A DNA stretch of 32,101 nucleotides. It comes from Candidatus Nealsoniibacteriota bacterium. Its GTDB lineage: Bacteria; Patescibacteriota; Minisyncoccia; Minisyncoccales; JAUWAW01. Each line of letters begins with the position of its first letter. Within the stretch, counting starts at the first letter, position 1. Under the pieces are notes generated by a model, which ran no database searches, was not told the origin of the DNA, and worked only from the letters and a program-made list of their open reading frames with translations. Location: contig JAUWAW010000007.1 in NCBI GenBank assembly GCA_030601865.1, positions 1-32,101 of the forward strand, written 5' to 3'. The position numbers and the translations under genes are program-made. This document shows, one piece after another, positions 246 to 22,968 of the stretch.

Positions 246-860
246 TTAAGGCCCTATCCACGTACATCCTGATTGGGCTTCACAGTTCTTTTGATCCAAG
301 AAATTCTCGCAAGGAGCACAGGTGCCAGTACATTGACGCAATTTCCGGTCCCAATTACAACCATTTTGTCTTTTACATAATTTTCTATCAGCGAACTCCT
401 GACAAGAAGTGCAAGTTCCCTGACATAGAAAAACAATCTTCTGCCAGTTAGTTAGATAGGTAATTAATTTAATTTGTTGAAATCTATCTTCGGTAAATTG
501 CCAGGTTACTTGAGAAGTAACTTTTTTTGCGTCTGAATTTATGTCTTCAATAGTGATTTTTCTAACTCCTCCCCTAAGTTGACCACTAATATCTTCTTGA
601 GCCCCTTGAAAAATCCAGTTATTGCCAGAAATGGCTAAACCATGAGGGCCTGGAGAAAGCTCGTCCCAAGAATTATCCCGAATAGATCTTGCAGCCTCCA
701 CTCCTTCTTCAGCTAAAAAATTCGCCTCGGATATTTCTTTAGCCAGACGGCCAGAAACATAACCATTGAGTATAAAAAAAGCTAAGACGCTAACTACTAT
801 GGCAAAAATCCCGATGGCAATTATTAATTCTAATAATGACTGTCCCTTTCTATATCTCAT
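246..860 (-). CDS. Prepilin-like protein (PilV/GspI-type) with C-terminal Cys-rich repeats
   Basis: A 204-residue protein. The N-terminus MRYRKG followed by QSLLELIIAIGIF is a prepilin leader with a short basic segment, glycine -1 and glutamate +5, then a hydrophobic helix to about residue 32. The middle (about 40-140) is a typical minor-pilin head. The C-terminal 60 residues hold two copies of a cysteine module with the pattern C-x-G-x-C-x2-C-x8-C-x5-C-x-W (GTCTSC... GCNW and GTCAPC... GCTW). The same module occurs in the next gene upstream. The gene lies 10 nt after its neighbour's stop and 18 nt before the next start, so it is one operon with pilC and pilB. Minor pilins prime pilus assembly and sit at the tip; the cysteine modules may form a disulfide-stabilised tip domain. 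The head is not recognised beyond the pilin fold. Confidence 0.85.
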   Translation of the reverse strand: MRYRKGQSLLELIIAIGIFAIVVSVLAFFILNGYVSGRLAKEISEANFLAEEGVEAARSIRDNSWDELSPGPHGLAISGNNWIFQGAQEDISGQLRGGVRKITIEDINSDAKKVTSQVTWQFTEDRFQQIKLITYLTNWQKIVFLCQGTCTSCQEFADRKLCKRQNGCNWDRKLRQCTGTCAPCENFLDQKNCEAQSGCTWIGP

Positions 861-870
861 ACTTCATAGT

Positions 871-1512
871 TCATAGTTCTAAATTGATCCTTCCTATTTC
901 ATTTATGTTTATTGTCCTACTATCACTATTACTACTCAAGACAATACTTCCTCCCTGGCTAGGAGGATACCAAGAACAACCTGATTGATCTTCGCAGCTC
1001 GTTTGATCAGAGAAACCATCACAGGAAGTACAAGTGCCAATGCATAGACTCTGCTGTTTTTGCCAGCTACATCCATCCTGTTTTTTACATGACCTTTTAT
1101 CAGTGAAATCTTTACAGGAAACACATTCTCCTCCACAATAGGCCGGGCTCTCTGGTATCCCCTCAAATTTTGAAAAAACTATTTCTTGAAAACCTTTCAC
1201 GGTTATAATCTGAGACAAATCAAAAACTTCATCGAATTCCTTATCACGGTTTAAATAAGAATCTCCTTTAAATAAAATGTAGTTGTCATTTGTTAAATAA
1301 ACTCCGAAACTCGAGTCATCTTCTATAGACATTGCTTTTAGCTGAGCTCGTCTTAAGGTCTGAATCGCCCCTTGGGTATAAATATTAAGCTGCTGACTTC
1401 TATAAAAATCCAGAGATAGAGGAACAAGACCAATCAAAATTGTCAATAACCCGATTACTAACAAAACTTCGATTATAGTGAGTCCATTCTTTTTCTGAAA
1501 AAGAAAGGCCAT
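871..1512 (-). CDS. Prepilin-like protein (FimT/GspH-type) with inserted Cys-rich repeats
   Basis: A 213-residue minor pilin. The leader ends in KKNG, followed by LTIIEVLLVIGLL with glutamate +5. The C-terminal strand pair, GGSIVLSS... RTININEIGRINLEL, is the conserved ending of GspH/FimT-type pseudopilins. Between the two halves of this fold (about residues 124-184) sits an insert with two cysteine modules (CGGECVSC... GCSW and CIGTCTSC... GCSW), nearly the same as in the neighbouring gene. The insert appears to lie in a surface loop, because the sequence before and after it joins into a normal GspH pattern. It starts 5 nt after the pilC stop. Likely role: tip or priming subunit of a T4P or competence pseudopilus. 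FimT-type pilins bind DNA in some species, which would fit the nearby comF, but that is inference. Confidence 0.87.
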   Translation of the reverse strand: MAFLFQKKNGLTIIEVLLVIGLLTILIGLVPLSLDFYRSQQLNIYTQGAIQTLRRAQLKAMSIEDDSSFGVYLTNDNYILFKGDSYLNRDKEFDEVFDLSQIITVKGFQEIVFSKFEGIPESPAYCGGECVSCKDFTDKRSCKKQDGCSWQKQQSLCIGTCTSCDGFSDQTSCEDQSGCSWYPPSQGGSIVLSSNSDSRTININEIGRINLEL

Positions 1513-2677: not shown

Positions 2678-4360
2678 TTATTTGACGGCTCTTAAAATTT
2701 CTTCAATGGTGGTGACTCCTACCTCTACTTTCTTTATCCCATCCTCAATCATAGTAGTCATGCCCAGACTCGCTGCCTCTTCTCTAATTCGTGAGGCATT
2801 GGCTTTTTCCATAATTAATCTTTTAATTGATTCATTTATTTCTAAAATCTCAAAAATGCCCACTCTTCCCCGATAACCAGTGTTTTGGCAGAGAGGGCAT
2901 CCCTTTCCTCGAAAAAGACGAACTCGATCTTTTTTTGTTTCTGGTAATTTTGAAGCAAGGTCTTTGTCTAAAAGCGGTTCAATTTCTGAAAAAAAAACTT
3001 CGTAACTTTCAATACATTTTGGACAAATTCTTCGAACCAATCTCTGGGCAATAACAATATTAATTGTCGAGACGATTAAAAATGGCTCAATTCCCATGTC
3101 CAAGAGCCTGGGCAAAGTAGTGGGAGCATCGGTAGCATGAAAAGTTGATAAAACCAAGTGACCAGTCATTGCAGCATTTACTGCTAACTTTGCGGTCTCT
3201 GTATCTCTTATTTCTCCCACCATTATAATATTTGGGTCCTGCCTTATGACAGCCCGGAGACCTTGGGAAAAGGTCAAATTAGCTTTGGGGTTGACCTGAA
3301 TTTGATTAATTCCAGGGACATCATACTCAATGGGATCCTCAATGGTCATAATATTAAGTTTCCTGGTATTTAAAATTTTTAATATCGCATACATAGTAGT
3401 GGTCTTGCCGCAACCAGTAGGGCCTGAAGCCAAAATCATTCCCCAAGGCTTTCTAATGTTTTTATTAATGATTCCAAGACCCTCTGCTCGTAACCCCAAT
3501 TCTTCTAAATCAAATCTCTTTGCTTTTTCTGCCAGCATCCTCATTACCACCTTCTCCCCTTCTTCAATTGGAACCACTGAAATTCTAACGTCAACTTTCT
3601 CAGCTGGAACTGAAAATGAAAAATGGCCATCCTGAGCAGCATCATGGATGTCAATTCTAAGCTTAGCTAAAATCTTAATTCTTGAAACTAAAAAATCATG
3701 CAAGACCTTGGGAAGAGTTAAGATATCGTACAAAACTCCGTCAATGCGGTATCTTATTATTGTTTTTTCTTCATAGGGTTCAATATGAATATCTGAAGCT
3801 CGATTTTCGTATCCATAATTTAAAATAGAATCTACCATTTTGATTACTGGCAAGGGCCGAGCTTCTCTTTTGGTCCTTTTGAATTCTTCAAGACGTTCTT
3901 TAATAATTTCTTCAAATTCCTCTTTTATCTCTTTTTTATAATGCTTCAGAGCCTCTAAAATATCATCTTTTGTAGCAAAATAAGGAATAACACGCTCCCC
4001 GGTTTTTCTCTTAATAAATTCTCGGATTTCTAAGTTTTCGGGATTATGCATTGCCATCTTCAATCCTTTTTTAGTTTTATCAAAAACAATAATTTTCTGT
4101 TTCTTTGCCACAATTTCTGGCACAATTTTAAGAACTTCTTTGTCTATTTTTACCCTTCGTAAATTGACAAAAGGGAAGCCTGATTCATCAGCTAAGAGCT
4201 TCCCTAATTCTTCGTCTGAAATAAAACCCTTTTCCTTCAAGATGTTCTCTAGAGGTTCTTCTTTAGCACTGGCTTCTTTTTTGGCTGCCTCAAAGTTCTT
4301 AGGTTCAATCAACCCCGAATCAACCAAAACTTTTTTTAATAGTAAAGACGTAATTTTCAT
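2678..4360 (-). CDS. pilB: Type IV pilus extension ATPase PilB (copy 1)
   Basis: A 560-residue GspE/PilB-family hexameric ATPase that powers pilin polymerisation on the cytoplasmic face. Residues 1-130 form an MshEN-type N-terminal domain (SGLIEPKNFEAAKKEA, LADESGFPFVNL). The core starts near 172 with the ASDIHIEP motif. Walker A is GPTGCGKTTT (313-322), the Asp box is MTIEDPIEY (338-346), Walker B is IIMVGEIRD (378-386), and the His box includes HLVLSTFHATDA. A tetracysteine zinc site is formed by CPKC (446-449) and CPLC (488-491), which is typical of extension rather than retraction ATPases. Its start overlaps the response-regulator gene by 4 nt (ATGA), implying translational coupling. It is clean, with no palindrome insert, unlike the second PilB (19577-21355). 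Confidence 0.96.
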   Translation of the reverse strand: MKITSLLLKKVLVDSGLIEPKNFEAAKKEASAKEEPLENILKEKGFISDEELGKLLADESGFPFVNLRRVKIDKEVLKIVPEIVAKKQKIIVFDKTKKGLKMAMHNPENLEIREFIKRKTGERVIPYFATKDDILEALKHYKKEIKEEFEEIIKERLEEFKRTKREARPLPVIKMVDSILNYGYENRASDIHIEPYEEKTIIRYRIDGVLYDILTLPKVLHDFLVSRIKILAKLRIDIHDAAQDGHFSFSVPAEKVDVRISVVPIEEGEKVVMRMLAEKAKRFDLEELGLRAEGLGIINKNIRKPWGMILASGPTGCGKTTTMYAILKILNTRKLNIMTIEDPIEYDVPGINQIQVNPKANLTFSQGLRAVIRQDPNIIMVGEIRDTETAKLAVNAAMTGHLVLSTFHATDAPTTLPRLLDMGIEPFLIVSTINIVIAQRLVRRICPKCIESYEVFFSEIEPLLDKDLASKLPETKKDRVRLFRGKGCPLCQNTGYRGRVGIFEILEINESIKRLIMEKANASRIREEAASLGMTTMIEDGIKKVEVGVTTIEEILRAVK

Positions 4361-4755
4361 GTTTCATGTTTCATGTTTTTTACCAGCCATTCTTTAACCT
4401 TTTCCACTACTTCCGACAAGCTGACCTCAGTTTTCACTAAATAGTCCTGAGCCCCTAAAGAAAGTCCTCTTTGAATGTCTGATACCTGGCCAAGGTTAGA
4501 AAGAATAATTACTGGGATATCCCGGAAGGCTCTGTTTCTCTTCATGTCAATTAAAACGTCAAAGCCATTTTTTCTGGGCAAGATTAAATCCAATAAAATT
4601 AAATCTGGTTTTTCAGAAATAATTTTACTTATGCCTTCTAGGCCATTGGTGGCTTCAATAAATTCAAAACCTGCTCGAGTCAACTTATCTCGATAAATCT
4701 TCCTTAAAAACCTATCATCTTCAATCATTAATATTTTTTGTTTTTTATTATTCAT
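4357..4755 (-). CDS. Single-domain response regulator (CheY-like)
   Basis: A 132-residue receiver domain without an output domain. The acidic pocket is E12-D13-D14, the phosphorylation site is D56 in LILLDLILP, followed by the conserved IILSNLGQ and the lysine in YLVKTE. Its partner is probably the histidine kinase encoded 45 nt upstream. It overlaps pilB by 4 nt, so the phosphorelay most likely acts on this pilus system, in the way PilG/CheY-type proteins act on pilus motors. The last residues, VKNMKHET, are encoded by a repeated GTTTCAT word (4361-4377) at the junction with pilB, so the C-terminus may have been extended by repeat growth. Confidence 0.93.
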   Translation of the reverse strand: MNNKKQKILMIEDDRFLRKIYRDKLTRAGFEFIEATNGLEGISKIISEKPDLILLDLILPRKNGFDVLIDMKRNRAFRDIPVIILSNLGQVSDIQRGLSLGAQDYLVKTEVSLSEVVEKVKEWLVKNMKHET

Positions 4756-4800
4756 AACTAACGGTAAACGGTAAACGGTAAAACGTTTAACGTTAAATTT
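4756..4800. repeat. Tandem GGTAAAC word with inverted tail
   Basis: The 45-nt spacer between kinase and regulator is three copies of a GGTAAAC/GGTAAAA word, followed by the inverted AACGTTTAACGTT. It is a short member of the foldback-spacer class. Confidence 0.5.
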
Positions 4801-5526
4801 CTAATGTTTTAATGAATTAGCAATGGGAAGTGTGAAATAAAAAGTCATTCCTTGATCCTTGTTTTTTAAAAACCAAATTTTACCCCCGCCCAATTCAATG
4901 GTGGCTTTGTCTATATAAAGGCCGAGGCCGGTGCCACCGGGGTCTACTTCCATTGATTTTTCTGATCTGTAAAATTTAGTAAAAACTTTTTTAAAATCGT
5001 CCTGTGGAACACCAATTCCATTATCTTTACAGCAAAACAAAACCTCTTTATTTCTTTTCTCCAAAGATACTTCTATTTTTCCTCGACCAAGGGGTTTAAA
5101 CTTTAAAGCATTGGAAATTAGATTTTCAACTACATGACGAATTTTAAAAGGGTCAGCTAAAACCAAGGGCAATTTTTTTGGCTTTTTAAAAAAGATTTCA
5201 CAGTTTGAGGCCCGGACCCAATCAGAAAACTCGTTTGTTACCTCAGAAATTATCTTTCTCAGGTCTATTGATTTTAGTTTCAGTTCGTATTTCCCTTCCT
5301 CTATTCTTGTAACATCTAAAAGATAGCCAACTATCCTGCTCATTCTCTTTGTGTTTTCCAGGGCATCTTTAAGATATTCTCTTTGTCTTTGATTGATTCC
5401 ACCAAAATCTTCTGAAATTAAAACCTCAAGATAACCCTTTAGTACTGCGATAGGGTTTTTTAGCTGGTGGGCAACAATAGAGATTACCTCGGATATTTTT
5501 GGTTTTTCAGGAAAAACTTCTGCCAT
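4801..5526 (-). CDS. Soluble sensor histidine kinase
   Basis: A 241-residue kinase made only of the HisKA dimerisation domain and the HATPase_c domain. The H-box is ISIVAHQLKNPIAVLKGYLE, with the phospho-accepting histidine at about residue 20. The N-box is NLISNALKF, the G1 box DNGIGVP and the G2 box GGTGLGLYI, all intact. There is no transmembrane segment and no PAS, GAF or HAMP domain ahead of the H-box, so it must sense through a partner protein or an intracellular cue. It is first in the run kinase, regulator, pilB, pilC and minor pilins, so it most likely controls that pilus. A TATAAT box lies 33 nt upstream of the ATG. ComF is encoded 83 nt upstream on the same strand. Confidence 0.93.
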   Translation of the reverse strand: MAEVFPEKPKISEVISIVAHQLKNPIAVLKGYLEVLISEDFGGINQRQREYLKDALENTKRMSRIVGYLLDVTRIEEGKYELKLKSIDLRKIISEVTNEFSDWVRASNCEIFFKKPKKLPLVLADPFKIRHVVENLISNALKFKPLGRGKIEVSLEKRNKEVLFCCKDNGIGVPQDDFKKVFTKFYRSEKSMEVDPGGTGLGLYIDKATIELGGGKIWFLKNKDQGMTFYFTLPIANSLKH

Positions 5527-5559
5527 TTATTCGTGTGGCGTATTCGTAACGCTATTTAC

Positions 5560-5587
5560 ATTATAACTGATTATGACCAAAAGACAA
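5560..5587 (-). promoter_or_regulatory. Possible promoter upstream of the histidine kinase gene
   Basis: On the minus strand TTGTCT (5582-5587) and TATAAT (5560-5565) are 16 nt apart. This would give a leader of about 27 nt before the kinase ATG at 5526. Confidence 0.5.
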
Positions 5588-5609
5588 CAATACAAAACCC
5601 CCATTTTGG

Positions 5610-6335
5610 TTACCCCCGGGCCACCACTACGCCCCAGACCTCTTGCGCGCCTGCCTTTTTCAGCACGCGGCCGCACTCTTCCATGGTAGCACCAGTGGTA
5701 TAAATATCATCAACCAAGAGAATTTTTCGGCTCCGCACCTCCTCAGGCTTTTGACAAAAAAAGGCGCCTTTAATATTTTCCTCTCTTTCCGATTCTGAAA
5801 GTTCTACCTGGGCTTGGGTCTCTTTAATTTTTAATAAAGAATCGCCGACTACTGGAATCCTCAAAAACTTCCCCAGTTCTTTGGCAATCTCCTCGCTTTG
5901 GTTAAAACCCCGCTCTCTCAACTTGCTTTTATGAAGGGGTACTGGCAGTAAAACAAACCTGGAAAAGTCAGGCGGTTTGTCCAATAAATGAAAATGGGTT
6001 ATTATTAAAGAAGCTAAAGTGTTAGCCAGGCCTTTAAAATAAGGTGGGTATTTAAACTGCTGAATTAATCTTTTGGTCAAAAAATTCTCATAGGGCAGAG
6101 CAGAGTATAAACCATGCAAAATTTTGCCTCGGCATTTTCTACATTTGCCCTTCACCATTTTTGTTCCAAAAATGGTGAAGGGTTCTTTGCAGAGACAATG
6201 TTGCTCTTCTGAAACCTCTAACAAGGCCTGACAATCTTGACAGAGATAACTCCCCTCTTTGCCACAACTGAGACAAAACCGAGGGAAGAAAATGTCCAGG
6301 AGAAAAGCTTTTATTGAAATTAATATTTTTTTCAT
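5610..6335 (-). CDS. comF: ComF family phosphoribosyltransferase-like competence protein
   Basis: A 241-residue ComF/GntX-family protein. ComF proteins are needed for natural transformation, where they probably work on single-stranded DNA after it enters the cytoplasm. The N-terminal zinc region has cysteines at about 21, 24, 32, 35, 47, 49, 65 and 68. The C-terminal phosphoribosyltransferase loop is ILLVDDIYTTGAT (about 205-217), preceded by the conserved LLPVPLHKSKLRERGFNQ. Residues about 50-63 (KEPFTIFGTKMVKG), between zinc-binding cysteines, are encoded by a perfect 15-bp-arm palindrome (6148-6182). Because it adds whole codons and the cysteines remain, the protein is probably functional. 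Its position next to a pilus kinase, motor and minor pilins suggests that this cluster serves DNA uptake. Confidence 0.92.
   Translation of the reverse strand: MKKILISIKAFLLDIFFPRFCLSCGKEGSYLCQDCQALLEVSEEQHCLCKEPFTIFGTKMVKGKCRKCRGKILHGLYSALPYENFLTKRLIQQFKYPPYFKGLANTLASLIITHFHLLDKPPDFSRFVLLPVPLHKSKLRERGFNQSEEIAKELGKFLRIPVVGDSLLKIKETQAQVELSESEREENIKGAFFCQKPEEVRSRKILLVDDIYTTGATMEECGRVLKKAGAQEVWGVVVARG
6148..6182. repeat. Palindrome (15-bp perfect arms, GTTCC loop) inside comF
   Basis: Arms 6148-6162 and 6168-6182 are exact complements around the loop GTTCC. Loop and inner arm match the tsaD hairpin at 11216-11254 (loop GGAAC, the same sequence on the other strand). The insert is in frame. Confidence 0.88.
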
Positions 6336-6415
6336 GCTTAGTATATAAACATTTTAACATCTTAACATTTTAACAAAAACAAGCTTCACAATGTTAGTAT
6401 GTTAATATGTTAATA
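6336..6415. repeat. Foldback spacer of TTAACAT / ATGTTAA words
   Basis: Between the divergent comF and pilM genes, the left half repeats TTTTAACAT and the right half repeats its complement ATGTTAATATG. Similar spacers lie at 8870-8936 and 24196-24271. Confidence 0.6.
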
Positions 6416-10732: not shown

Positions 10733-11920
10733 ATGATTATTCTAGCCATTGAAACTTCTTGCGACGATACCTGTGTCGCCATAGTCAAGGCCTCTGGAAA
10801 AAGAAGACCGCATTTTGAAATTTTGTCAAACATTATCTCCTCGCAAGTAGAAATCCACAAAAAATGGGGAGGCGTCTATCCTAGTTTAGCCAAACGAGAA
10901 CACCAGAAAAACTTACCCTTGGTCTTAAAAAAAGCCCTTAAGCCGTTGACATCGGATGTCAACATCCGATGTCAACGGCAGAAAAAGATTGATGCTATTG
11001 CTGTGACAGTTGGGCCGGGGTTGGAGCCGTGCTTGTGGGTGGGCCTAAATTTTGCCAAGGATTTGGCGCAGAAATGGAACACACCCCTTATCTCTGTCAA
11101 CCATATTGAAGCGCACATACTCGCCAATTTCATCAGTCCCACCTGTCATTCTGAGCGAAGCGAAGAATCCCGCGGTCAGTGCACAAACAACGGGACCCTT
11201 CGCTCTGCTCAGGGTGACCCCCCACCACTTTTGGAACAAAAGTGGTGGGGGGTCAATTTTCCGGTTGTATGCTTGGTGGTCAGTGGGGGTCACACACAGT
11301 TAATTTTGATGAGAGATTTCGGTCATTATAAAATTCTGGGGGAGACCCGCGATGATGCGGCTGGCGAATGCTTTGACAAAATAGCCCGGCTTTTAGGGCT
11401 GGCCTTTCCCGGCGGCCCAGCTATCGCCGCCGAAGCAAAAAAATATGTTCGTGGTAAAAAACCTACGATCGTAGGTTTTTTACCACGAGGGTTGCCGCGG
11501 CCGATGATTTACCAAAAGAATTATGATTTTAGTTTTTCCGGGTTGAAAACTGCTGTTTTGTACAATTTTAGAAGTCAATCACCCGGGGTAAGGAAATCAA
11601 AAAAATATATCCAAGAAATGTGTACTGAGGTACAACAAGCCATAATTGATGTTTTAATTCACAAAACCATAAAAGCTGCTAAAGACTACCGAGTACAAAC
11701 TGTCATCTTGGGCGGCGGCGTGGCTGCTAACAAAGAGCTACGTAAACAATTCCAGCAAAGACTTAAAAAAGAGAAATCAAGTTTCAAGTTCCATGTTCCA
11801 AGTTTCAAGTTCTGTACTGACAATGCCGCCATGGTCGGAGTGGCTGGATATTTTCAATGGTTAAAAGGAAAAAAAAGAAACTGGAAAGACATTGAAGTAA
11901 ATGCCAATTTAAGGGTATAA
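10733..11920 (+). CDS. tsaD: tRNA N6-threonylcarbamoyladenosine transferase TsaD with palindrome-encoded inserts
   Basis: TsaD transfers the threonylcarbamoyl group to A37 of ANN-decoding tRNAs, together with TsaB, TsaE and TsaC. It has the Kae1/Qri7 landmarks: IETSCDDTCVAIV at the start, VTVGPGL, the metal-binding histidines in NHIEAHILANF (H124, H128), VVSGGHTQLIL, DDAAGECFDKIAR, FPGGPAI, DFSFSGLKTAVL, GGGVAANKELR and CTDNAAMVG with aspartate 363. At 395 residues it is about 50 longer than usual. The excess is explained by repeat DNA translated in frame: about residues 70-83, 138-174 (including CHSERSEESR), 239-252 and 348-360. All catalytic motifs lie outside these inserts, so the enzyme is probably active, with the inserts as surface loops. 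The tsaD stop codon overlaps the valS promoter. Confidence 0.94.
   Translation: MIILAIETSCDDTCVAIVKASGKRRPHFEILSNIISSQVEIHKKWGGVYPSLAKREHQKNLPLVLKKALKPLTSDVNIRCQRQKKIDAIAVTVGPGLEPCLWVGLNFAKDLAQKWNTPLISVNHIEAHILANFISPTCHSERSEESRGQCTNNGTLRSAQGDPPPLLEQKWWGVNFPVVCLVVSGGHTQLILMRDFGHYKILGETRDDAAGECFDKIARLLGLAFPGGPAIAAEAKKYVRGKKPTIVGFLPRGLPRPMIYQKNYDFSFSGLKTAVLYNFRSQSPGVRKSKKYIQEMCTEVQQAIIDVLIHKTIKAAKDYRVQTVILGGGVAANKELRKQFQQRLKKEKSSFKFHVPSFKFCTDNAAMVGVAGYFQWLKGKKRNWKDIEVNANLRV
10942..10979. repeat. Palindrome (17-bp perfect arms) inside tsaD
   Basis: Arms 10942-10958 and 10963-10979 are perfect complements with a 4-nt loop. The 19-mer GTTGACATCGGATGTCAAC within it recurs exactly in valS at 13860-13878. 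Confidence 0.9.
11145..11218. repeat. Inverted pair of the TGAGCGAAGCGAAG-type repeat inside tsaD
   Basis: Arms 11145-11172 and 11191-11218 are imperfect 28-nt inverted copies. The left copy is translated as CHSERSEESR, a peptide seen widely in databases as a translated repeat (from memory). Single copies lie in spacers at 15471-15497 and 19410-19440. Confidence 0.85.
11216..11254. repeat. Palindrome (17-bp perfect arms, GGAAC loop) inside tsaD
   Basis: Arms 11216-11232 and 11238-11254 are exact complements around GGAAC. It abuts the preceding inverted pair, making a composite insert of about 110 bp. Confidence 0.9.
11450..11487. repeat. Perfect 38-nt palindrome inside tsaD
   Basis: Two 19-nt arms with no loop, centred on ACGATCGT. 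It encodes about RGKKPTIVGFLPR just before the LPRPM segment. Confidence 0.92.
11778..11812. repeat. In-frame 21-bp-period direct repeat inside tsaD
   Basis: CAAGTTTCAAGTTC occurs at 11778-11791 and 11799-11812. The 21-nt period adds seven codons, giving SSFKFHVPSFKF just before the CTDNAAMVG motif. Confidence 0.7.
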
Positions 11921-14953: not shown

Positions 14954-15454
14954 ATGTCTTTTTTCGATAAAATCAAAAAAGGGATAGGCGTTGAGGAGGA
15001 GGAAGAAATTAAAGAGAAAAAACCTGCTGCCGGAAGAACAAAAAAAATACCTGCCTTGCGGCAAGGCGGGCCGGCTCAAAATCCGAAAAAGCTTATCCCA
15101 AAGAAAGAAGGTTGGCCCGAGTCAGAGGGACAATTAGCCATTGATGTTTATCAAACTCCGGAGGAGATTGTTATTCAATCCACTATTGCTGGGGTAAAAG
15201 CAGAAGACCTGGATGTTTCCTTTGAGAATGATATGGTCATTATAGAAGGAAAACGAGAAAAGTTTGAGGAAGTACAAGAAAGAAATTATTTTTATCAGGA
15301 ATGCTATTGGGGGGCTTTTTCCAGAAAGATTCTTCTACCAGAGGAAGTTGATACCTCCCAAGCAACTGCCACCATGGAAAAGGGGATTTTAACCATCAGG
15401 GTGCCCCGGGCCCGAAAGCGAAAAAGAAAGAAAATCGCCATCAAAGAGGAGTAG
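14954..15454 (+). CDS. Small heat-shock protein (Hsp20/alpha-crystallin)
   Basis: A 166-residue holdase chaperone. The alpha-crystallin domain runs from about residue 55 to 155: LAIDVYQTPEEIVIQSTIAGVK, a WGAFSRKILLPEEVD segment, and KGILTIRVPRA at the usual position of the A-x-x-x-n-G-v-L motif. The N-terminal arm is lysine- and glutamate-rich (VEEEEEIKEKK) and carries a palindrome-derived stretch (PALRQGGP, DNA 15050-15070). The tail RKRKKIAIKEE has the IxI-like motif used for oligomer assembly. The substrate range cannot be told. The gene is preceded by an AGGAG box, unlike most genes here. Confidence 0.93.
   Translation: MSFFDKIKKGIGVEEEEEIKEKKPAAGRTKKIPALRQGGPAQNPKKLIPKKEGWPESEGQLAIDVYQTPEEIVIQSTIAGVKAEDLDVSFENDMVIIEGKREKFEEVQERNYFYQECYWGAFSRKILLPEEVDTSQATATMEKGILTIRVPRARKRKRKKIAIKEE
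15050..15070. repeat. Short palindrome CCTGCCTTGC / GCAAGGCGGG inside hsp20
   Basis: Arms 15050-15059 and 15061-15070 with one mismatch and a 1-nt loop. In frame, it adds PALRQGG to the N-terminal arm of Hsp20. Confidence 0.65.
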
Positions 15455-15470
15455 TCGGCCAAAAAAGCGT

Positions 15471-15497
15471 CATCCTGAGCGATAGCGAAGGATCTCA
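15471..15497. repeat. TGAGCGAAGCGAAG-type repeat, single copy
   Basis: CATCCTGAGCGATAGCGAAGG lies in the spacer after hsp20. It is the same family as 11145-11218 and 19410-19440. Confidence 0.75.
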
Positions 15498-15539: not shown

Positions 15540-16724
15540 ATGCAAAAATTTAAAATTATAGTTTGTGTCTTAATTCTCTCTTCTTTGGCAATCCCCTCCA
15601 ATTATGCTAAGGGACAAGGGATTCTGGATATTTTCGCCTGTTTAGGAGAAGGATTAGATCTTGTGGGAAATCTTTTCGGATGTATTGATAACATCCAAAC
15701 AGTCTGGCAAGAATGTGAAGCAAAAAAGAAGGCCTATACGGGGTACACAGAAGGTGAGATTTACTACCCGGGCAAGTGCGATAGATATCCGGAGAAAGCT
15801 GAGACGTATGTTAAAGAGGAAGAAGGTCAAGTTTCTTTCCCCAAATGTGATTTAAAATATGATTGTGATAACCCAGAATCAAAATGCGTAGAGAAGTATA
15901 CAAACTATGTTGACAAATGCAAGACAAGCTATACAAACTCTCTTGGCAAATGCAGCCAACGGTATACGACTTCTCTTGGCAAATGCCAAGATAAAGATGA
16001 AGTATACCGGAGGAAGTACGAGAGTAAAAAGGAAAAAAGCCTGGACAAATATTGTGATAAATATTGTGAAGAATGCGAAAAAAAGGAAGAAGAAATAACG
16101 AGAACAGACCTTATCACTGGAGAAACAGTAACGATAACAGTAAAAGTAAGAGAGTGTAAAAAATATGTAGAAAAGAGAGGAAAATCACTGGAAAGTAAAT
16201 TTATCAAATATCATCAAAAAACAATAGATAAATACCTTAGATATCTTGATAAGGCAGACGAGAAGAAGAAACGTTGTGATACAAAAACTAATAACAAAAA
16301 GAGTCGCTGCGATACGAGGACAATTGCACGTAAGGAATCCTGTGATGAAAGGGCTGAAAAGTTGAAAAAAAGATACCAAACAAAATACGCAGGATGTAAG
16401 ACCAAGTCCCTCCAAAAAAGAGACAAATATCTTCTCGGATATAGAAAATGCCTCGTCAAGGCTGAGATAGTCAAGGAAAAGTGCAAGATAGGGTTAACTA
16501 GAAGACGGATACGAGCAATCAGGAGATGCCTGAAAAGCATTGAACGATCTGTCAGGAGTTTTATAAAAGCCTGTGCGAGCTTTGAGGCGGCCACAAAAAT
16601 AATAGACACACAAGCTGAAGCTGCAAGACAAAACGCGGAGCAAATAGAATCAAGCGAGCAAGCCAAGATAAAGCAAAGTGAGACAAATATAGAAAAGCTA
16701 CGAGAACAGTTAGATGAGTTATAG
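15540..16724 (+). CDS. Secreted Lys/Cys-rich helical protein with a cysteine stripe, unknown function
   Basis: A 394-residue protein not recognised as any family. The N-terminus (MQKFKIIVCVLILSSLAIPS) is a signal peptide, so the product is exported. The rest is very rich in Lys, Glu, Arg and Tyr and predicted mostly helical, with 23 cysteines. Cysteines recur at 116, 127, 138 and 149, then at 246, 257, 268, 286, 304, 315, 330 and 345. The spacings are 11, 18 or 15, all combinations of 7 and 4, so they fall on one face of a helix (hendecad/heptad pattern). A beta-like insert (ITRTDLITGETVTITVKVREC) separates the two runs. The C-terminal 60 residues (QAEAARQNAEQIESSEQ to the end) form a cysteine-free coiled coil. 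It may be a disulfide-stapled fibre or surface filament. A clear terminator follows. Confidence 0.85.
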   Translation: MQKFKIIVCVLILSSLAIPSNYAKGQGILDIFACLGEGLDLVGNLFGCIDNIQTVWQECEAKKKAYTGYTEGEIYYPGKCDRYPEKAETYVKEEEGQVSFPKCDLKYDCDNPESKCVEKYTNYVDKCKTSYTNSLGKCSQRYTTSLGKCQDKDEVYRRKYESKKEKSLDKYCDKYCEECEKKEEEITRTDLITGETVTITVKVRECKKYVEKRGKSLESKFIKYHQKTIDKYLRYLDKADEKKKRCDTKTNNKKSRCDTRTIARKESCDERAEKLKKRYQTKYAGCKTKSLQKRDKYLLGYRKCLVKAEIVKEKCKIGLTRRRIRAIRRCLKSIERSVRSFIKACASFEAATKIIDTQAEAARQNAEQIESSEQAKIKQSETNIEKLREQLDEL

Positions 16725-16763: not shown

Positions 16764-16768
16764 GTTTG

Positions 16769-16850
16769 TGCGGACGGTGGGACTCGAACCCACAAACCTT
16801 TCGGCATAGGATCCTAAATCCTAAGTGTTTCCCAATTTCACCACGTCCGC
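16769..16850 (-). tRNA. tRNA-Leu (UAG)
   Basis: An 82-nt class II tRNA on the minus strand. Acceptor GCGGACG/CGTCCGC with discriminator A. The anticodon stem TAGGA/TCCTA encloses loop TTTAGGA, giving anticodon UAG. The long variable arm is TGCCGAAAGGTT. The T arm is GTGGG-TTCGAGT-CCCAC. CCA is not encoded. Confidence 0.95.
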
Positions 16851-19576: not shown

Positions 19577-21355
19577 TTACTCCTCTGTTACTCTCAGCAC
19601 TTCCTCAATCGTGGTAATGCCGTCTAATGCTTTCAAAATGCCATCCTGTTTCATGGTGAGCATTCCCTGACGAACCATCTCTTGGGCAATTCCCTTTTCA
19701 GTGACGCCTTCCAAAATAAGGTCAGACAGCTCATCGGTCATGGCTAAGGCCTCAAATATCCCAATTTGACCAATAAAGCCAATGTCGGCACATTTTCTAC
19801 AACCCTGAGCCTGATAAATGTAAAGAGGCTTGGGGGGTTTGATTCCTTTTACCCCCACACCAGAAGGGGGGCTGGCTTCGCCAATTTTAGCGCCTTTGGC
19901 GCTCTGCCCCCGTTTGGTGTGGGGGTGAAGTTCTTTCAAAATCCAATCGCGAATTTCTTTTTTTGGTTTCACCTTTTTTCTACAATGAGGACACAATTCT
20001 CTTAGCAATCTCTGGGCTATGGCACAGCTCAAAGTGGGAAGAATTAAATAAGGTCGGATTCCTAAATCTATCAAGCGAGGGATGACCCCCAGAACATCAG
20101 TGGTATGTAAGGTAGACAAAACAATATGACCGGTCAGAGCAGCATGGATGGCCAAAGAGGCGGTTTCCTCATCTCGGATTTCCCCCACCATAATGATGTC
20201 AGGGTCTTGACGCAAAACATGACGGAGACCAGTGGCAAAGTCATAGCCAATTTCTGGCCTCACTTGGGACTGATTAACTCCTTCTATAAAGTACTCTACC
20301 GGGTCTTCCAGGGTAACAAGATTTACTCCTTCTTTATTTAATCTCCTCATCATAGCGTATAGAGTGGTGGTCTTGCCACAGCCGGTGGGACCGGTAGCCA
20401 AAATGAGTCCAAAGGGTTTTTTGATGGCTTTTTCTGTTGCTTCAAGGTTCTTCCTTGCCAAACCCAGTTTTTCAAAAGGCTTCAAACCCACGCTCGGATC
20501 AAGTACCCTGATAGCTACTTTCTCTCCCAAGGTAGTGGGAAAGGTAGAGACCCGAAAATCAATCTCCTTATCCTCAACTTTAGTAGTAAATCGGCCATCT
20601 TGGGGAATTCTGGTCTCATCAATTCTAAGATTAGAAAGAATCTTAACTCTGGCTACCACTGCTGGATGTATCCTTATGGGCAAAAGGATGGAAGAATGTA
20701 AAATCCCCAGCAGGCGAAAACGGATTCTTAACTTTTCTTTGGTTGGCTCAATATGAATATCGGACGCCTTCCCTTCTACGGCGTGCCGCAAGAGAACAGC
20801 CATCACTTTGCTAATGGGCGCTTCCTCTACCAATCTCTCAAATTCAGCTGGAGTAGGAGGACGTTTCTCAATTTTTTCAGCCTGTATCTCCACCTCCAGT
20901 TCTTCCAAAGCTTTCTTCACCTCTCTTTTAAGAGAACGATATTTTTTGAACAGATTCTTATGGTCAGATAAGCTAATCAAGCAAATTTTATAAGAGAATT
21001 TACCCTGACGGGCTAAAAACTTCAAGGCCTCCTGGACTTTAAGGTCTTCAGGATAAACCATACCCACCTCTAAAACATTATCTTTTAAGGATATGGGTAT
21101 CATCTGATAAAATCTGGCTGACTCTTCGGGAATGAATTCTAAGGTCTTGAGGGGTATTTCTTCCAAGGCAACTTCTTTTAAGGGAATTTTTAAATTTTCG
21201 CTTTTTAAGCCAAATAAAAAACCTTCAGAAGCAATTCTTTTTTCCAAAAGAACCTCTTCTTCTCTCCTCCCAGAACTTTTAATTTCAAACTCAAGAGAAG
21301 TGGCTTTCTCCTTGTCTAAGACTCCTTTTTTAACTAATTGTTGTATAAGAGTCAT
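19577..21355 (-). CDS. pilB: Type IV pilus extension ATPase PilB (copy 2) with a palindrome insert
   Basis: A 592-residue GspE/PilB ATPase. Walker A is GPTGCGKTTT (322-331), Asp box LVTLEDPVEYF, Walker B IIMVGEIRD (387-395) and His box HIVLSTLHTTDV. The zinc site is CPHC (455-458) and CRKC (519-522). Between these pairs, residues about 478-505 (HTKRGQSAKGAKIGEASPPSGVGVKG) are encoded by a nested inverted repeat at 19852-19927; removing it gives a spacing closer to other PilB proteins. The N-terminal domain differs from copy 1, so the two ATPases are old paralogues. Its ATG directly follows the TAA of the PilP-like gene, indicating coupling with pilN/O/P-like genes. It is probably the motor of the main pilus, opposed by PilT. 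Confidence 0.95.
   Translation of the reverse strand: MTLIQQLVKKGVLDKEKATSLEFEIKSSGRREEEVLLEKRIASEGFLFGLKSENLKIPLKEVALEEIPLKTLEFIPEESARFYQMIPISLKDNVLEVGMVYPEDLKVQEALKFLARQGKFSYKICLISLSDHKNLFKKYRSLKREVKKALEELEVEIQAEKIEKRPPTPAEFERLVEEAPISKVMAVLLRHAVEGKASDIHIEPTKEKLRIRFRLLGILHSSILLPIRIHPAVVARVKILSNLRIDETRIPQDGRFTTKVEDKEIDFRVSTFPTTLGEKVAIRVLDPSVGLKPFEKLGLARKNLEATEKAIKKPFGLILATGPTGCGKTTTLYAMMRRLNKEGVNLVTLEDPVEYFIEGVNQSQVRPEIGYDFATGLRHVLRQDPDIIMVGEIRDEETASLAIHAALTGHIVLSTLHTTDVLGVIPRLIDLGIRPYLILPTLSCAIAQRLLRELCPHCRKKVKPKKEIRDWILKELHPHTKRGQSAKGAKIGEASPPSGVGVKGIKPPKPLYIYQAQGCRKCADIGFIGQIGIFEALAMTDELSDLILEGVTEKGIAQEMVRQGMLTMKQDGILKALDGITTIEEVLRVTEE
19852..19927. repeat. Nested inverted repeat inside pilB copy 2
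   Basis: Outer arms 19852-19863 and 19916-19927 (ACCCCCACACCA / TGGTGTGGGGGT) are exact. Inside are AGGGGGGC / GCCCCC and AGCGCC..GGCGCT. The outer arms match the cruciform at 16858-17004. Confidence 0.85.
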
Positions 21356-22163: not shown

Positions 22164-22176
22164 AATTCGTAGGGCT

Positions 22177-22448
22177 AATTCAAGATTATATATTTATACC
22201 TTAACGAATCAAGGTTCTGACGAGCGTTAGCGAGGCAGGTTCTTAATTCAAGACTATATATTTATTCCTTAGCGAATCAAGGTTCTGACGAGCGTTAGCG
22301 AGGCAGGTTCTTAATTCAAGACTATATATTTATACCTTAACGAATCAAGGTTCTGACGAGCGTTAGCGAGGCAGGTTCTTATTTCAAGACTATATATTTA
22401 TTCCTTAGCGAATCAAGGTTCTGACGAGCGTTAGCGAGGCAGGTTCTT
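22177..22448. repeat. Tandem array, four 68-bp units
   Basis: Units are 22177-22244, 22245-22312, 22313-22380 and 22381-22448. Each has TATATATTTAT, CGAATCAAGGTTCTG, ACGAGCGTTAGCGAGGC and AGGTTCTT. Units 1 and 3 read ACCTTAACG where units 2 and 4 read TCCTTAGCG, so the array is a doubled 136-bp dimer. The last unit overlaps the stop codon of the PilN-like gene. A related unit lies at 31772-31835. Confidence 0.95.
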
Positions 22449-22968
22449 ATTTAAATACTTCGGGAGCAAGGAATAAACTCAAACTAAATAGGGCACCGCC
22501 TTCTTTTCTAATGGAGATTTTAGACAAATGAACAGATTTAATTTCCGGGGCTTTTTTAAAAATAAGAATTTGCTGGCCCAGGGTTTGAAAACTCTCAGCA
22601 TTTCCGGAAAGTCCAGCTCTAAGCTCCTCAGAATTGAGACTAAGTTCTGTGAACTGAACCTGGGGATGGCAAAGTTTTTCTAAAAAGGAAAAGAAATTTA
22701 AAGGAACCTGATGTTCAGCAACAAGTACGGAAAAATCGTTTATTTTCTCCTGGCAGCTGAAGACCTCCTTTTCTAAAAGTTCCTGAGAAGGTTTTTTTTG
22801 AGAGATAACCGCCTCTAAATTTTGCAGGGTTTGAGAGGCTCTTTTTTGAAACAGACTTAAAAAAAATAGCGCTAAAACCGAAACTAAAAGTATAGTTATT
22901 GAAACATAGAAAAGAATACCCAGCCAAAGAGGAAGTTTAGCTACGCGCTTGGGAATTATTTCAACCAT
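22447..22968 (-). CDS. PilN-like type IV pilus protein
   Basis: A 173-residue bitopic protein. After a short basic N-terminus (MVEIIPKRVAKLPLW) comes a transmembrane helix (about 16-40, LGILFYVSITILLVSVLALFFLSLF), a coiled coil, and a small domain with QVQFTELSLNSEELRAGLSGNAESFQTLGQQI, typical of PilN. Pairing with PilM would use the N-terminus, although the usual INLLP motif is only weakly present (VEIIPKR). The start at 22968 is preferred; an ATG seven codons upstream (22989) lies in a repeat element, exactly as in the second pilC. The stop codon overlaps the 68-bp array. Confidence 0.8.
   Translation of the reverse strand: MVEIIPKRVAKLPLWLGILFYVSITILLVSVLALFFLSLFQKRASQTLQNLEAVISQKKPSQELLEKEVFSCQEKINDFSVLVAEHQVPLNFFSFLEKLCHPQVQFTELSLNSEELRAGLSGNAESFQTLGQQILIFKKAPEIKSVHLSKISIRKEGGALFSLSLFLAPEVFK

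Follow-up and report, generated by a model that had tools for sequence, protein, structure and literature searches.

A cysteine- and lysine-rich orphan protein with hendecad cysteine spacing, predicted to be exported, encoded between hsp20 and tRNA-Leu in a Patescibacteria genome

The locus between hsp20 and tRNA-Leu

We analyzed a 32,101-nucleotide stretch of DNA (hereafter, the window) from a Patescibacteria genome of 0.59 Mb (96% complete), whose valyl-tRNA synthetase (ValRS) is closest to that of Candidatus Nealsonbacteria (71%). Between hsp20 and tRNA-Leu(TAG) lies an intact open reading frame, ORF X, which encodes a protein of 394 amino acids (X; Table 1). Its codon score is positive in this frame only, and the gene resembles the genome less in synonymous codon usage than any other of the 19 tested window genes. 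The inverted repeat that follows is a probable bidirectional terminator.

The gene order ValRS, PrsW protease, Hsp20, tRNA-Leu(TAG) and T4SS-type pilins is strongly conserved in Nealsonbacteria-type relatives, and in none of the 16 relatives in which both borders could be measured does X lie between hsp20 and tRNA-Leu. The two borders are separated by 1-135 nt in 15 of these relatives, and in the remaining one (L007) by a different two-gene insert of 3 kb (3303-6360). X is thus present in the window alone while its borders are conserved, which marks it as a lineage-specific insertion, either acquired or newly arisen, and this site has taken an insert at least twice. We looked for a tRNA-type attachment site, and no direct repeat of tRNA sequence flanks X; integration directed by the tRNA is therefore unsupported.

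Several repeated sequences also came to light. The insert in L007 is flanked on both sides by one terminator-like sequence, CACCAAAAAGCAGCGCTCGTTAGCGCTGCTTTTT. Within the window, a palindromic element that encodes HSERSEESRG...LRSAQGD is inserted in frame into tsaD (10733-11920), at 11147-11230, in a loop of variable length among relatives, and an element like it, TCATCCTGAGCGATAGCGAAGGATCT, is found immediately upstream of X, at 15470-15495. Between two pilN/pilO-like pilus-assembly genes, at 22176-22449, are four 68-bp tandem repeats that are almost identical (96%).

Table 1. Features of the locus, predicted elements of X and thioredoxin-like proteins of the genome
Feature	Coordinates	Strand	Basis
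hsp20, conserved left border	14954..15454	+	comparison with relatives
ORF X, 394 aa, putatively exported Cys/Lys-rich helical orphan protein	15540..16724	+	coding-frame score; no homologue found
Signal-peptide-like N-terminus, MQKFKIIVCVLILSSLAIPSNYAKG, probably type I	15540..15614	+	judged by eye from sequence
Predicted N-terminal amphipathic helix, residues 26-67, Cys 34/48/59	15615..15740	+	AlphaFold, periodicity
Low-confidence Cys-containing loop after N-terminal helix, residues 68-112		+	AlphaFold
Predicted helix 1, residues 113-175, first ladder Cys 116/127/138/149	15876..16064	+	AlphaFold, Cys spacing
33-bp tandem duplication encoding the 11-residue unit KCxxxYTxSLG	15882..15991	+	tandem-repeat finding
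C-x3-C-x2-C (172/176/179) and predicted beta-hairpin 179-189/196-206	16053..16157	+	AlphaFold, Cys spacing
Predicted helix 2, residues 207-345, second ladder Cys 246/257/268/286/304/315/330/345	16158..16574	+	AlphaFold, spacing
Predicted Cys-free C-terminal helix, residues 349-394	16584..16721	+	AlphaFold
Perfect 17-bp inverted repeat, 5-nt loop	16728..16766	.	between X and tRNA-Leu
tRNA-Leu(TAG), conserved right border	16768..16850	-	comparison with relatives
382-aa CTYC ORF	G000:C3 about 21155-21313; L095 565-1710	- (both)	
Membrane-anchored exported thioredoxin-like protein, CGWC (GAHWCGWCGKQ)	G000:C10:6494-6715; L098	+	

Cysteines of X follow a hendecad in two ladders

Judged by eye, X starts with a signal-peptide-like segment, which would be cleaved on export and agrees with an earlier reading of the sequence alone that took X for an exported protein; there is no membrane helix beyond it. 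Lysine and arginine make up 86 of 371 residues, next to 63 acidic ones (pI 9.1). Cysteines are found at positions 9, 34, 48, 59, 80, 103, 109, 116, 127, 138, 149, 172, 176, 179, 206, 246, 257, 268, 286, 304, 315, 330, and 345, of which an even number, 22, belong to the mature part.

The pattern that these cysteines form is real and above chance. Gaps of 11, 11, and 11 residues (116-149) and of 11, 11, 18, 18, 11, 15, and 15 (246-345), which the sequence-only reading had listed, proved exact on recount, and a further gap of 11 separates Cys 48 and 59. The exact 11-residue gap occurs seven times in the mature protein and in 0 of 100,000 shuffles (P<1e-5), and the recurrence of any gap seven times is rare when the 22 mature-part cysteines are shuffled (P=2e-4). 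The same reading had explained the intervals as sums of 7 and 4, and such sums do account for 19 of the 21 gaps (P=0.001), but this is weak evidence because 7a+4b yields every integer of 18 or more. The true signal is a hendecad, with 11/3 residues per turn. At the hendecad angle of 98.18 degrees, Cys 116-149 are perfectly in line (R=1.00, clustering P=0.001) and Cys 246-345 nearly so (R=0.89, clustering P=0.003), the steps of 11, 18 (11+7), and 15 (11+4) in the second group holding the helical phase. Taken over the full mature protein, the cysteines cluster weakly (R=0.46, P=0.06), and we therefore describe two separate cysteine ladders, with a predicted beta-hairpin between them, in place of the single long helix face proposed earlier. 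Part of the first ladder is made by a 33-bp tandem duplication, so that its exact 11-11 spacing does not count as independent evidence; its regularity is partly historical, and the second ladder is diverged.

The hydrophobic residues other than cysteine share this period. They repeat every 3.65 residues, as the cysteines do, both in residues 113-175 (P=0.006) and in residues 207-345 (0 of 500 shuffles match). With or without cysteines, hydrophobic residues peak at 98-98.5 degrees (period 3.65-3.67) in both segments, and cysteines alone peak at 96.5 degrees in the first and 98.5 degrees in the second. This is the 11-residue core repeat, with a period near 3.67, that characterizes a hendecad. 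In residues 241-345 taken alone, the non-cysteine hydrophobic period is not significant (P=0.29), and the period there therefore rests on the cysteines themselves. Cysteines and hydrophobic residues are out of phase by about 20 degrees in helix 1, which would place the cysteines in the seam, and by about 60 degrees in helix 2, which would place them at the seam edge.

Predicted structure

We ran AlphaFold twice on X as a single sequence, with no relatives aligned, once with and once without the signal peptide. The two runs agreed on the succession of elements (helix 26-67, loop, helix 113-175, hairpin, helix 207-345, helix 349-393), at low to medium confidence (pLDDT 65, pTM 0.35-0.39; pLDDT 38-51 for the remaining four models per run). 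Lys/Glu-rich sequence easily comes out as helix in such predictions. The two end residues of the predicted hairpin are exactly Cys 179 and Cys 206. When the model was compared with solved structures by Foldseek, no significant match was found; matches to V-ATPase stalk helices fell short of significance, with E-values of 0.2 or more. An antiparallel register with i+j=384 pairs Cys 116-268, 127-257, 138-246, and 80-304, the centre of the hairpin being at 385, and an alternative register with i+j=395 pairs five cysteine pairs. The two differ by one hendecad, an ambiguity that leaves them suggestive at most, and we claim neither.

Searches for relatives of X

X gave no match over the cut-off in Pfam, NCBIfam, PHROGs, PADLOC, or PDB sequences, and none to the T4SS_pilin profile (PF18895) at E<=10. 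Homologues were likewise absent from about 1,000 genomes of the order, class, and phylum, from the phage and plasmid collections searched by tblastn, and from 84,980 genomes and viral contigs scanned with peptide patterns. The sequence-only reading had recognized no known family, and the empty profile, sequence, and structure searches bear it out. The four weak matches (L002, L003, L004, and L097) were rejected as homologues, being compositional or short or broken frames, and a role in defense was discarded, the one pointer being a weak, coiled-coil-type match to ZorA. Because there is no homologue, no cysteine of X has conservation evidence. A DNA pattern for K-C once per 11 residues identified X as the sole protein of this design in 243 genomes of the order. 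The pattern also gave three isolated matches in these genomes, and two other matches proved to lie antisense to FDEKTEE-type repeats, which encode a coiled coil free of Cys (as demonstrated for L002).

Exported proteins of the genome look disulfide-bonded

Cysteines after residue 26 make up 4.2% of the exported window proteins (X left out), versus 0.9% of the cytosolic ones. The nine other exported window proteins have 10, 10, 4, 10, 4, 6, 6, 0, and 0 cysteines, so that all ten counts, including that of X, are even; among pilin-like homologues in relatives, whose start sites are uncertain, this bias is weaker, the count being even in 19 and odd in 9. Even cysteine counts are used in reasoning on disulfide-bonded exported proteins in sections of two studies (PMC12421883, PMC7678975), and X combines such a count with an export signal recognized by eye. 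Overall, the exported protein set of this genome looks disulfide-bonded.

Cysteine-rich pilins also occur here and in a relative. Two type IV pilin-like proteins of the window (246-1512, minus strand) have in common Cys-rich repeats that follow the pattern C-x2-C-x2-F-x5-C-x4-GC-x-W, and a T4SS_pilin (PF18895) protein of a relative (L013, 14400-15470, minus strand) has 42 cysteines beyond residue 26; they lie in an N-terminal ectodomain that is long and Cys-rich.

The disulfide-forming enzymes that an earlier suggestion had named, DsbA and VKOR, gave no confident match: in this 96% complete genome, no protein exceeded the cut-off for VKOR (PF07884), Thioredoxin_4 (PF13462), DSBA (PF01323), or DsbD_TM (PF02683). 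The genome does encode two exported CxxC thioredoxin-like proteins (Table 1). One, of 382 amino acids, combines a lipoprotein-like signal with a thioredoxin/glutaredoxin-like domain that contains CTYC and with a membrane part of several helices, and is a candidate exported thiol oxidoreductase. Its membrane part contains two more cysteines (FNVCSLGA and EFPCSAAVP), and the protein is reminiscent of DsbD/CcdA, yet unmatched by PF02683. The other, with CGWC, resembles the thioredoxin domain that is fused to bacterial VKOR.

What X may be

X is unusual as a sequence design, yet it stands alone, with neither relatives nor a functional context. The most economical account, which we infer, is an orphan exported coiled-coil rod with disulfide staples. 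We give roughly even chances to its being a lineage-specific exported hendecad coiled-coil rod or helical hairpin that is stabilized by disulfides and has a structural or contact role in the envelope. X would fold as long hendecad-type alpha-helices that form the rod or hairpin, and its recurring cysteines, on or beside the interhelix seam, would become linked by disulfides once X is exported and would thereby stiffen the rod, replacing the large hydrophobic core that the Lys-rich protein lacks. Such a gene may have been acquired or have arisen between hsp20 and tRNA-Leu, may have grown at least partly via the 33-bp tandem duplication, and its product would most likely work outside the membrane. 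Of the earlier proposal of a disulfide-stapled coiled coil or helical bundle, the helices (as predicted), the cysteines at the hydrophobic period, and the disulfide-bonded look of the exported set stand, and the single continuous face does not.

An unlikely alternative, which takes up the fibre idea of the sequence-only reading, is that X forms a parallel homo-oligomeric coiled coil and thereby a covalently linked, fibre-like rod. With identical chains in register, each seam cysteine would bond its own copy in the neighbor, so that irregular gaps (11, 15, 18) would be tolerated, and our periodicity analysis does place cysteines at the seam; against this, the intramolecular antiparallel registers described above offer a competing, if ambiguous, pairing. 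The further idea that X founds a new covalently cross-linked surface fibre, a stable extracellular filament for host contact in which disulfide rungs, one to each helical repeat, replace the hydrophobic core of a hendecad coiled coil and join the chains, seems to us improbable. We found neither an anchor nor a sorting signal in X, nor any relative or homology to fibres: profile searches found no anchor domain, and the sequence has no C-terminal hydrophobic segment.

X might also be a polycation-type exported helix whose Lys/Arg residues bind DNA, teichoic acid, or a host surface, with cysteines that just stabilize it. Its basic composition would suit this, as would its genomic neighbors, four T4SS_pilin (PF18895) proteins encoded next to X and type IV pilus genes nearby, T4SS pilins being among the expressed adhesion candidates in Patescibacteria (PMC10936435). 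We doubt this account, however, as gene position alone provides the functional link and X is rich in acidic residues too. Charge is common among coiled coils.

Similarly doubtful is that X is a young orphan gene whose selected function is slight and which grew by 33-bp duplications, the cysteine period being a by-product of these. The lack of relatives, the tandem copies, and the atypical synonymous codon usage are all consistent with it, but duplication alone is insufficient for the diverged second ladder, whose 18- and 15-residue steps keep phase, and X has a signal-like N-terminus and its own terminator. Quite unlikely, finally, is a Cys-rich exported protein that binds metals or cofactors (Zn, Fe-S, or other metals): C-x3-C-x2-C (172-179) together with C206 would make a plausible four-ligand set, but most cysteines of X are single and 11-18 residues apart on helices, unlike metal sites, other exported window proteins look disulfide-bonded, and X matches no family.

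If the disulfide-stapled rod is the right account, a small-genome Patescibacteria lineage has used a minimal unit of 11 residues to build an exported helical rod that is stiff and in which cysteines do the work of a hydrophobic core, and disulfide-stapled coiled coils would have a simple natural template in X. The account would also point to an exported proteome rich in disulfides in a genome where DsbA, VKOR, and DsbD are not recognizable, making the identity of the thiol oxidase a testable question.

Comparison with known systems

Like L002, a protein from the same order with FDEKTEESKQH hendecad repeats, X has an 11-residue helical repeat, and the two match weakly (E 0.0018); unlike X, L002 has neither cysteines nor a signal peptide, and the similarity is compositional. 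X shares probable export, a putative signal peptide, and an even cysteine number with its T4SS_pilin (PF18895) neighbors, which in contrast have membrane helices and match PF18895, whereas X does neither. Passages of two papers (PMC6624373, PMC6131620) discuss segments of lamin, as well as the peripheral stalks of rotary ATPases, under the hendecad. X is unrelated to these in sequence, and none of them is a bacterial exported protein with Cys ladders, but like the hendecad (11/3) coiled coils of lamin and the ATPase stalks, its seam has an 11-residue period.
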